This document shows positions 2,527 to 13,774 of a stretch of 64,000 nt of DNA, in pieces. The notes beneath the pieces were generated by a model. It was not told the origin of the DNA and did no database searches. It worked only from the letters and a program-made list of their open reading frames with translations. The DNA is from Lentzea tibetensis (GTDB taxonomy: Bacteria > Actinomycetota > Actinomycetes > Mycobacteriales > Pseudonocardiaceae): assembly GCF_007845675.1 (NCBI RefSeq), contig NZ_VOBR01000019.1:1-64000 (forward strand), given 5' to 3'. The translations under genes were made by a program, and so were the position numbers. Each line of letters starts with the position of its first letter. Position 1 is the stretch's first letter.

Positions 2527-2886
2527 CGCGATTGCGTCGACGAGGCGGTGCTCGCCGAGGAGGCGGGCTTCGACCGGGTGTGGGCCGTCGAGCACCACGG
2601 GCTCCGGCACCACGCGCACATGAGCGCCCCCGAGATCTTCCTGACGATCGCGACGGCCGCGGCGTACGGCGTCGGCGCGCTGGTGCTGGGCTTCGGCGGG
2701 CCCGACCACATCAGGGAGCTGCGCGGGACCTACGACAAGGCCATCGGCGAGCACCTGGTCTCGACCGAGGTGAACGACCACTTCGCCGCGCTGTGCCCCA
2801 CGGTCGTCCTGCCGGACCGGGACCGGGCGCGCGAGGTGGGCCTGCGCGGCCAGCGGTTCTTCGTCATCCCGCGGTTCAGGTGGTGA
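2527..2886 (+). pseudogene. Remnant of an LLM-class flavin-dependent oxidoreductase
   Basis: The frame encodes two pieces of a luciferase-like monooxygenase joined directly. The N-terminal piece (DEAVLAEEAGFDRVWAVEHH, then SAPEIFLTIATA) corresponds to the first beta-alpha units. The second piece (GFGGPDHIRELRGTYDKAI, then NDHFAALCPTVVLPDRD, then GLRGQRFF) corresponds to the C-terminal third. The middle of the barrel, well over 100 residues, is missing, as are the start and the last helices. There is no good ribosome-binding site; an internal GTG at 2548 could only give a truncated 112-residue product. The last 11 bases overlap the YciI gene on the other strand. Confidence 0.8.
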
Positions 2887-3178
2887 GCACGGCCTCGTTC
2901 AGCATGACGACCTCGGCCGCGGTGCGGGTGGCCTCGAACTCGATCACCTCGCACTTCACGAGCTTCTGCACGACCCACGGGTCCGTCGCGAGCAGCGCGT
3001 CGAGCTTCCCGCGTGGCATGGGCCGGGTGAGGATCACGCCGCCGGTGCGCGGCCGCTGACGACCCGATGCGATGAAGAGACCCGCCTCGTACTGCTTCTC
3101 GACCCACGCGCGGTGGTCGGGCAGGGCGTAGTCGATTTGTTCCAACGGCGCGTCATATCGGAGCAGCACGATGAACAT
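2876..3178 (-). CDS. YciI family protein
   Basis: Protein of 100 residues with the ferredoxin-like YciI fold: N-terminal beta strand MFIVLLRYDA, the conserved His-Asp region (ALPDHRAWVEKQYEAG), the middle strand FIASGRQRPRTGGVIL and the C-terminal motif DPWVVQKLVKCEVIEFEAT. YciI proteins are small soluble proteins, some with hydrolase-like activity, usually of unknown substrate. The ATG lies 20 bp from the trp leader ORF that runs the other way. It stands alone; the gene on its left is a broken oxidoreductase. Confidence 0.9.
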   Translation of the reverse strand: MFIVLLRYDAPLEQIDYALPDHRAWVEKQYEAGLFIASGRQRPRTGGVILTRPMPRGKLDALLATDPWVVQKLVKCEVIEFEATRTAAEVVMLNEAVLTT

Positions 3179-3198
3179 GGACCAACGGTAGTCCTAGA

Positions 3199-3255
3199 AT
3201 GGTGAACGTGCGCACTCTGAACGTCTTCTGGTGGACCGTCTCCCGGCGGTCCTAG
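3199..3255 (+). CDS. trp leader peptide with tandem Trp codons
   Basis: Short ORF of 18 codons, MVNVRTLNVFWWTVSRRS, with two adjacent TGG codons at 3229-3234 and a TAG stop at 3253-3255. GTG codons at 3202 and 3208 are alternative starts. It lies just upstream of trpS and inside a set of mutually exclusive hairpins, so its role is to sense charged tRNA-Trp by ribosome stalling, not to make a functional protein. Ribosome-mediated attenuation of an auxiliary TrpRS gene is known in Streptomyces, which supports this reading. Confidence 0.85.
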   Translation: MVNVRTLNVFWWTVSRRS

Positions 3256-3302
3256 AGCTGTGCGCTCACCTCAACCAGGCCGCCCCATCGGGCGGCCTTT
3301 TT
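3229..3302 (+). promoter_or_regulatory. Ribosome-mediated Trp attenuator of trpS
   Basis: Three competing structures can be read. (1) Leader hairpin: GGACCG 3233-3238 with CGGTCC 3247-3252. (2) Antiterminator: GGCGGTCCT 3245-3253 with AGGCCGCC 3277-3284, one bulged base. (3) Terminator: AGGCCGCCC 3277-3285 with GGGCGGCCT 3290-3298, loop CATC, followed by TTTTT 3298-3302. A ribosome stalled at the Trp codons (3229-3234) covers the left arm of (1), frees 3245-3253 to form (2) and so prevents (3). With ample Trp-tRNA the terminator forms and trpS is silenced. Confidence 0.88.
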
Positions 3303-3344
3303 CGTGCGCTCGACGTGGCGGCCCTGCACCGAAAGGGCACGATC

Positions 3345-12652: not shown

Positions 12653-13626
12653 TGTTCGACCCAGCGTTCCCTGCCGTCGCGCACCTTGTCCGGTGCCAGC
12701 TGCTGCGGCTTCTCGGGCAGCGGCGCGGCCTTCGCCCATGACTCCGGCAGCGCGACACCCTCGCGTGACGGGTAGACGTACATCTGCTCGGCGACCTGGG
12801 CCTGGAACTTCTCGCCCAGCAGGAAGTCCAGCACCTTGCGCGCGTCCTCGGCGTTCTTCGCGCCCTGCAGCACGCCCGCGTACTCGACCTGTCGGTAGCA
12901 GGTGTCGAGCAGCGCCTTGGTGCGGCCTTCCTCGGCGCTCGGTGAGGAGGCGTAGGAGACGACGACCGGGCGCGGGCCCTTGCCGCTGGAGCCGGAGAAC
13001 TCCTGCGTGTAGGCCTCTTCCCAGCCGCTGACGACCTTGACACCGTTGGCCTTCAGCTTGGTCCAGTACTCCTGCCAGCCGTTCTCGCCGAACTTCGCGA
13101 TGGTGCCGAGCAGGAACGCGAGGCCCGGTGAGGACGTGGCCGGGTTCTCGACGACCAGCTTGTCCTTGTACTTCGGGTCGAGCAGGTCCTCGTACGACTT
13201 GGGCTCGTTGCCCGCGAGCGCGCCGGTGTCGATGTTGACGCACACGTCGCCGACGTCGACGGCGTGCAGCTTGCCGGTGTCGTCCGCCTTGTACCGCTGC
13301 GCGCCCTTGTCCGCCTCGGGCGAGGCGTATTCCGCGAACACGCCCTCCTGGAGCGCGCGGCTGGCGAACGTCGAGTCGACGCCGAACGCGAGGTCGCCGA
13401 TCGGGTTGCCCTTGGTGAGCACGAGCTTGTTCGTGAGCTCACCGGCGTCACCGCTCGCGAGCTGTTTCACGGTGATGCCCGAGGTGCGCTGGAACTCGTC
13501 CAGCACCTCCTGCTTGACCGCGAACGAGTCGTGCGTCACGAGCGTGACCTCGTGGCTCTTGGGCGCGGTCTGCGTCGAGCAACCCGCCGCGAGCAGCGCG
13601 GCGACGAGCACAATCCTTCTCATCAT
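12628..13626 (-). CDS. thiB: Thiamine ABC importer substrate-binding lipoprotein
   Basis: Protein of 332 residues with a lipoprotein signal (LLAAGCS lipobox, Cys at 16). The mature part is a class-II periplasmic-binding fold like ThiB: TLVTHDSFAVKQEVLDEFQR, the LVVENPATSSPGLAFLLGTI motif, and the aromatic-rich WQEYWTKLKANGVKVVSGW region. It binds thiamine or its phosphates outside the membrane and delivers them to ThiPQ. Two adjacent ATG codons (13626 and 13623) lie just after the riboswitch. Regulation by TPP is evident from the upstream element. Confidence 0.92.
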   Translation of the reverse strand: MMRRIVLVAALLAAGCSTQTAPKSHEVTLVTHDSFAVKQEVLDEFQRTSGITVKQLASGDAGELTNKLVLTKGNPIGDLAFGVDSTFASRALQEGVFAEYASPEADKGAQRYKADDTGKLHAVDVGDVCVNIDTGALAGNEPKSYEDLLDPKYKDKLVVENPATSSPGLAFLLGTIAKFGENGWQEYWTKLKANGVKVVSGWEEAYTQEFSGSSGKGPRPVVVSYASSPSAEEGRTKALLDTCYRQVEYAGVLQGAKNAEDARKVLDFLLGEKFQAQVAEQMYVYPSREGVALPESWAKAAPLPEKPQQLAPDKVRDGRERWVEQWRTLVQG

Positions 13627-13629
13627 CTC

Positions 13630-13719
13630 TCCCTACGCCGGCATGAACCGGATCAGGTGGGGACGGTCGAGGGCTGGCGCGCCCTCCTCTCAGCCCGGCG
13701 CAGCACCGGACTCCCGTGG
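13630..13719 (-). promoter_or_regulatory. TPP riboswitch (THI element)
   Basis: On the minus strand the classic THI elements appear in order: an ACGGGAG P1 arm, then GCTGAGAGGAGGG, then CCCTCGACC, then CCTGATCCGGTTCATGCC and GGCGTAGGGAG closing P1. These include the pyrimidine-binding CTGAGA and the pyrophosphate-binding helix region. It ends a few bases before the thiB start codon, so TPP binding probably hides the ribosome-binding site (translational control). Confidence 0.95.
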
Positions 13720-13774
13720 CAAACGCGCAGCTTACGCCCATGCATCAGATCGATTTGGGTGGGACGATCTGGAC

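Follow-up and report, generated by a model that had tools for sequence, protein, structure and literature searches.

The trp attenuator of Escherichia coli relies on Trp codons in a leader and on four RNA strands with alternative pairings, and it governs biosynthetic genes. Attenuation in Streptomyces coelicolor was reportedly the subject of a study by Vecchione and Sello. Attenuators of Trp biosynthesis are described for Streptomyces and Corynebacterium, and a 2005 prediction added a candidate before Streptomyces avermitilis trpS2 (PMC1262725). In Streptomyces lividans, trpL2 lies before trpS and is reported to be leaderless on the basis of transcription-start data; the trpS leader is given as MMTRTCTQLWRAA and the trpE leader as MFAHSTRNWWWTAHPAAH (PMC8079986). 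A second tryptophanyl-tRNA synthetase (TrpRS) resistant to indolmycin is described for S. coelicolor (TrpRS1) and Streptomyces griseus (SGR_3809) (PMC9437257, PMC6804068). An attenuated second trpS is a kind of system already known from Streptomyces. Literature searches that lay mostly outside subscription journals returned no paper on trpS attenuators of Pseudonocardiaceae.

The DNA analyzed here, called the window, is a 64-kb stretch (64,000 nt) of a Lentzea genome (9.36-Mb assembly), and the nearest relatives of its trpS protein are found in Lentzea species. Ahead of trpS, the segment 3208-3302 has the appearance of a Trp attenuator of the classical, ribosome-mediated type (Table 1), and we consider it very probable that this trpS is a backup synthetase under ribosome-mediated Trp attenuation. 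The arrangement follows the four-strand logic with Trp codons of the Streptomyces and Corynebacterium trp attenuators, but those govern biosynthetic genes and the one in the window precedes a synthetase gene. With the second-trpS attenuators of Streptomyces, it shares a leader with Trp codons, a probably leaderless mRNA (as in S. lividans) and hairpins ahead of trpS; it differs from them in its leader peptide and in having a U-tract. Like the auxiliary indolmycin-resistant TrpRS enzymes, with which it was compared by their description, the window enzyme is a second copy beside a canonical one, whereas its conserved neighborhood of typA, Nudix and histidine kinase genes sets it apart.

Table 1. 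Features of the trpS leader region in the window.
Feature	Position	Strand	Basis or remark
YCII-domain gene	2876-3178	-	divergent from trpS, with the leader in between
Probable promoter: TGAACA (-35-like), 17-nt spacer, TAGAAT (-10)	3172-3200 (TGAACA 3172-3177, TAGAAT 3195-3200)	+	promoter scan
Leader ORF, GTG start, VRTLNVFWWTVSRRS, 15 codons	3208-3255	+	stop TAG 3253-3255; translation predicted
Stem P0	3208-3214/3259-3265	+	minimum-free-energy (MFE) fold; first leader codons with a site 3' of the stop
Tandem Trp codons TGG TGG, regulatory codons	3229-3234	+	read from sequence
Hairpin 1:2 (protector), 8 bp	3233-3240/3245-3252	+	fold, alignment
Antiterminator 2:3	3245-3253/3277-3284 (aligned core 3245-3251/3278-3284)	+	ribosome-constrained fold, alignment
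Terminator hairpin 3:4, 9 bp, GC-rich	3277-3285/3290-3298	+	followed by U-tract 3298-3302
Shine-Dalgarno-like GAAAGG of trpS	3331-3336	+	read from sequence
Auxiliary trpS, tryptophanyl-tRNA synthetase, 312 aa	3345-4283	+	TIGR00233, PF00579

A preliminary description of this DNA, made from its letters and open reading frames, had reported a leader ORF with two tandem Trp codons, a terminator followed by five T residues, and three mutually exclusive stems. The tandem codons are present, and the terminator is as described, though T3298 is both the last stem base of 3:4 and the first T of the tract. All three stems can be found and exclude one another (1:2, 2:3 and 3:4) as in a classical attenuator; hairpin 1:2 is longer than the 3233-3238/3247-3252 originally given. 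In the window, 2:3 can be drawn as 8 bp with a bulged U3250 or as 7 bp with a G-U pair. The RNA from 3208 to 3305 has a predicted folding energy of -48.8 kcal/mol (z = -4.87), a stability equaled by none of 200 shuffles. A search of the window with Rfam at the gathering score gave no match to a T-box or Trp leader, and no tRNA that might be dedicated to the attenuated trpS lies within the window. The sole Rfam match is a TPP riboswitch (RF00059, 56.9 bits; 13613-13727, minus strand) directly before minus-strand frames (13626 to 10065) that, judged from their translations, look like a thiamine ABC transporter.

The only promoter-like match between 2900 and 3700 has its -10 hexamer 7 nt upstream of GTG 3208 (shuffled sequences gave a mean of 0.0 matches, sd 0.2), and transcription would start at or next to 3208. 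We compared this arrangement with 80 leader loci, made up of 50 named loci (L033-L081 and L105) and 30 loci from genomes of the family, the window among the latter. The named loci come from Lentzea, Saccharothrix and related genera, one being titled Nocardia sp., and were drawn from 80 relatives of the trpS protein; the remaining 30 relatives were from distant bacteria and were left out. Each of the 80 loci inspected contains a leader ORF with Trp codons, and 68, including the window, are distinct after 12 duplicates are dropped. In Lentzea sp. NEAU-D7, two loci on different scaffolds (L045 and L047) have identical leader regions, which may reflect a recent duplication or an assembly artifact. 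Two adjacent Trp codons (WW) are found in 60 of the 68 leaders and a single one in the other eight, and the leader peptide common among Lentzea relatives is VRTLNAFWWAAFRRPE.

Upstream of the chosen start, all 68 distinct loci have TAnnnT at a distance of 6-8 nt, and 52 have it at exactly 7 nt, compared with 105 of 9140 (1.15%) background ATG or GTG codons; the start was picked among one to four candidates per locus with this motif in mind, and 31 of the 68 loci offered a single candidate (counted by hand). Motifs resembling a Shine-Dalgarno sequence precede trpS far more often than the leader, whether a wide set (67/68 and 9/68, respectively) or a strict set (44/68 and 8/68) is used. The spacing of the TAnnnT motif and the rarity of Shine-Dalgarno-like motifs ahead of leaders suggest that the leader mRNA is leaderless. 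From these sequence features, the leader is most likely translated from a leaderless mRNA beginning at GTG 3208. The preliminary description had placed the start at ATG 3199, which is probably wrong. This ATG is in frame and open, and translation from it, with a promoter further upstream, would yield an 18-codon leader; yet its first two nucleotides (3199-3200) belong to TAGAAT, the -10 hexamer of the sole promoter-like match in the vicinity. Conservation among the relatives' leaders sets in at codon 3208, and 31 of 68 loci offer a single candidate start. Shine-Dalgarno-like motifs are also seldom found ahead of leaders (9/68), and we regard initiation at 3199 as very unlikely.

To what extent the paired strands are maintained can be seen in an alignment of 67 leaders that includes the window and leaves out L105. 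Hairpins 1:2 and 3:4 have 91.8% of their cells paired (shuffled mean, 90.6) and five doubly changed pairs, compared to a shuffled mean of 1.9. The double changes in 1:2 are at 3235/3250, where the window itself has A-U for G-C, and at 3238/3247. Antiterminator 2:3, which reads GGCGGCC/GGCCGCC in most aligned loci, has 96.9% of its cells paired and no covariation across the 67 leaders, because the helix hardly varies, as is expected when one strand has two partners. Stem P0, which the preliminary description did not include, has 87.9% of its cells paired (shuffled mean, 85.5). Its doubly changed cells number 21, where shuffles give 11.0; its three doubly changed pairs were a number reached by 78 of 500 shuffles. 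P0 is expected to form only while the leader is untranslated, when it would favor 1:2 and hence termination.

The preliminary description had proposed that a ribosome stalled at 3229-3234 would free the antiterminator, and had suggested RNA folding with ribosome occupancy as a check. We computed equilibrium folds of nascent or full-length RNA with an assumed ribosome footprint that covers the RNA to A+11, and these folds agree with the proposal. In the window RNA ending at 3286 or 3289, the 1:2 hairpin has a probability of 1.00 and the antiterminator 0.00 when no ribosome is present; a ribosome on either Trp codon raises the antiterminator to 1.00, and one at the stop codon leaves neither structure (antiterminator 0.00). 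The same behavior is predicted across the 67 loci: the antiterminator forms in 67/67 with the first Trp codon in the A site and in 67/67 with the next codon there, compared to 0/67 with the ribosome on the stop codon and 18/67 without a ribosome. With the ribosome displaced by -2 to +1 from the first Trp codon, 64-67 of the 67 loci still form the antiterminator. In this model, the fold does not discriminate the Trp codons from positions 5' of them, where offsets of -2, -3, -4 and -6 give the antiterminator in 64/67, 37/67, 57/67 and 34/65 loci, respectively. The full-length window RNA adopts the terminator fold in every ribosome state, so antitermination must be kinetic.

Taken together with the anatomy of the locus, these folds lead us to propose the following mechanism. 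Transcripts from the promoter would begin directly with the start codon of the 15-codon, two-Trp leader. With ample charged tRNA-Trp, the ribosome would reach the stop codon at 3253 and either cover strand 2 or leave, in which case 1:2 (with P0) would form. Strand 3 would then pair with strand 4, and RNA polymerase would terminate near 3302. When tRNA-Trp is uncharged, either from Trp starvation or because the main synthetase is inhibited or overwhelmed, the ribosome would stall on the Trp codons and mask strand 1. Strand 2 would thereby pair with strand 3 ahead of the synthesis of strand 4, and RNA polymerase would continue into the second trpS. TrpRS capacity would increase when needed, with the second gene backing up the canonical one at its separate location in the genome.

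The last step of this scheme depends on how the hairpin before trpS acts. A GC-rich hairpin follows the leader in 67 of the 68 distinct loci (L105 was mis-detected), and the terminator core GGCCG..CGGC is present in 60/67. U-tracts are more variable: 35 of 68 loci have a strong one, with at least 5 T in 8, and the other 33 a weak one. After the hairpin, 17 of 67 loci (L105 left out) show no more than 3 T in 8, and three of these have 0-1. At L030, L075 and L076, two of which are named Saccharopolyspora, the hairpin is present and the U-tract is absent (0-1 T in 8). Retention of the GC-rich hairpin in relatives that lost the U-tract would fit a different function, in which the hairpin at 3277-3298 is mainly not a regulated intrinsic terminator and acts instead through Rho, RNA stability or trpS translation, the U-tract in Lentzea being incidental. 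For S. lividans, no uridine-enriched sequence is reported downstream of trpL2 (PMC8079986). As for translation, the Shine-Dalgarno sequence of trpS is slightly less open than in shuffled sequences (0.36 versus 0.44, compared with 0.50 for housekeeping trpS, n = 30), and in 16 of 63 loci it falls in the lowest tenth of its own shuffles; yet openness is below the shuffled mean in just 39 of the 63, and the window goes the opposite way (0.50 versus 0.46). The window itself, moreover, has both a U-tract and the consensus terminator, and we consider such a different function of the hairpin very unlikely. Hairpins close to the trpS start were seen in many folds. Sequestration of the Shine-Dalgarno sequence as a second layer of control was considered as well; the effect is small (0.36 versus 0.44) and nonexistent in the window, and we do not claim it, though it may operate in some genera.

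The preliminary description had suggested that this trpS may be an auxiliary one and that the genome be searched for a second trpS. The search returned two trpS matches above cut-off: the window gene, at 216.5 bits, and a canonical copy elsewhere in the genome (C41) with a higher score of 361 bits. In the analysis of the window, its trpS scored 221 bits against TIGR00233 (cut-off 176.75). Auxiliary status is also supported by phylogeny. In a maximum-likelihood tree of 95 TrpRS, in which 23 auxiliary loci were sampled, a clade of 45 rows (support 100/99) unites the group of the window, a smaller intermediate group, the attenuated enzymes of a genus that we label g71, and another four auxiliary enzymes; housekeeping TrpRS lie outside it. 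This clade indicates that the window trpS belongs with other attenuated trpS genes and not with housekeeping ones. Weakly supported are the joining of the 45-row clade with actinobacterial housekeeping enzymes (83/88) and that of the window's group with the intermediate group (95/57). All 50 named loci have Nudix and histidine kinase genes as neighbors, 47 have typA and 45 have the YCII gene. In the window, the interval between typA and the trpS leader also holds a plus-strand fragment (2548-2886) resembling a luciferase-like monooxygenase (PF00296, E 7.2e-5, residues 2-39, below the gathering score; TIGR03558 likewise under its cut-off), perhaps a decayed gene. Three indolmycin contact residues have been named, H43, D132 and Q147 (PMC4899734). 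The window enzyme keeps all of them, but so do the attenuated g71 enzymes that were compared, and the residues are therefore uninformative on resistance.

The distribution of the leader was followed with a covariance model, R1. In the 9.4-Mb Lentzea genome, R1 has one significant match (E 1.4e-14; the next best has E 0.66), and the window was among the sequences from which the model was built. The auxiliary group comprises 81 trpS genes in 150 genomes of the family, 76 at 59% identity or above and five at 52-54%. An R1 match lies within 150 nt upstream of 80 of these 81 genes, the exception being in genome G049; the model was built partly from family loci, which match by construction. These 80 are among 112 R1 matches listed in the family genomes, and of the 32 elsewhere nine were opened: six precede genes resembling TrpRS II and three precede a frame resembling anthranilate synthase. 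In a further genus, labeled g19, where three loci were opened (L211-L213), R1 matches precede a frame of this kind as judged by eye from its translation. GGCGG-like motifs are common in DNA of 70% GC, and the leader might be taken for a non-functional remnant or a chance arrangement of GC-rich repeats. Against this stand a pattern scan for an in-frame TGGTGG mini-ORF with a U-tailed hairpin, which found one site in the 64-kb window, that of the leader, and zero in 15 dinucleotide shuffles of it; the single significant R1 match in the genome; and, decisively, conservation, with TAnnnT in 68/68 distinct loci and R1 upstream of 80/81 auxiliary genes. The probability of such an origin is negligible, in our view, and we retain the reading as a Trp attenuator.

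Outside the auxiliary group, housekeeping-type genes provide a comparison. We examined 31 housekeeping-type trpS genes, which are best-scoring copies and include one tree outlier (L175). Three are preceded by a WW mini-ORF that lacks the motif, and a WW leader combined with TAnnnT at 6-8 nt was found before none of the 31. Class-wide, R1 has matches at E of 0.01 or less in 123 of 394 genomes. Among 29 of these match loci that were opened, the window excluded, a TrpRS lies downstream in 16 and a Trp leader could be read in 28. Many of the opened loci are in g71, with leaders MTTRTCTQLWWAA and MFAHSTQNWWWTAHPAAH, which nearly match the S. lividans trpS and trpE leaders, respectively; we therefore take g71 to be Streptomyces. 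R1 thus recovers leaders such as MTTRTCTQLWWAA, whose enzymes are in the clade of the window, and also the MFAHSTQNWWWTAHPAAH type, close to that of trpE. The leader in the window differs from the MTTRTCTQLWWAA type in having its stop codon after 1:2, where theirs lies inside the 1:2 loop, and the enzymes of g71, a genus assigned from its leaders, are 44-50% identical to the window enzyme.

WW leaders are likewise found before a far-off TrpRS group with a TGDRPTG motif, which we take to resemble TrpRS II of Deinococcus. A set of 13 genes of this type (L178-L190) was chosen because they are second trpS copies, irrespective of their leaders. Up to 500 nt upstream, a WW mini-ORF is present at 11 of the 13 and its combination with TAnnnT at 10 (7 within 260 nt); four of the 13 are near-copies (L179, L180, L181 and L184). 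No WW leader was found in the upstream DNA searched at L186 and L190. Six more genes of this type were found through R1 matches of up to 77.5 bits, and their leaders are thus present by selection. Differing Trp leader peptides, among them VKSLVLVWWLPS, MIRTLCQGWWRST and MTSVPCRNWWRSS, precede TrpRS-II-like genes in other actinomycete families (L178, L179, L184, L187, L188, L189 and others). One scenario considered was that a TrpRS II replaced the auxiliary enzyme in place under the same attenuator. Neither typA nor the YCII, Nudix and histidine kinase genes were found in the ten regions inspected (L227-L236), of which five surround TrpRS-II genes from R1 matches and two surround TrpRS-II second copies; with none of these neighbors found around the seven TrpRS-II genes, the scenario lacks support. 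The leader is present before 80 of 81 auxiliary genes and before 10 of 13 plus six TrpRS-II-like genes at other chromosomal places, and before none of 31 housekeeping-type genes. On these grounds we tentatively suggest, at slightly less than even odds, that the leaderless Trp attenuator is a standing module of backup TrpRS in Actinomycetes, whatever their ancestry. In that case the physiological role, rescue upon failure of tRNA-Trp charging, would be set by the switch, and one enzyme could be exchanged for another downstream of it.

To the attenuated second trpS genes of Streptomyces, our analysis adds nearly all auxiliary-group genes in the family genomes searched, along with an alignment of 67 leaders. 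In the accessible portions of the literature searched, we found no account of this near-universality in the auxiliary group of the family or of leaders before TrpRS-II-like genes. The coupling of a leaderless leader to transcription can now be tested, as can the function of the switch in lineages that kept the hairpin and lost the U-tract. An inducible reserve that protects against inhibitors of the main TrpRS may exist in many actinomycetes.
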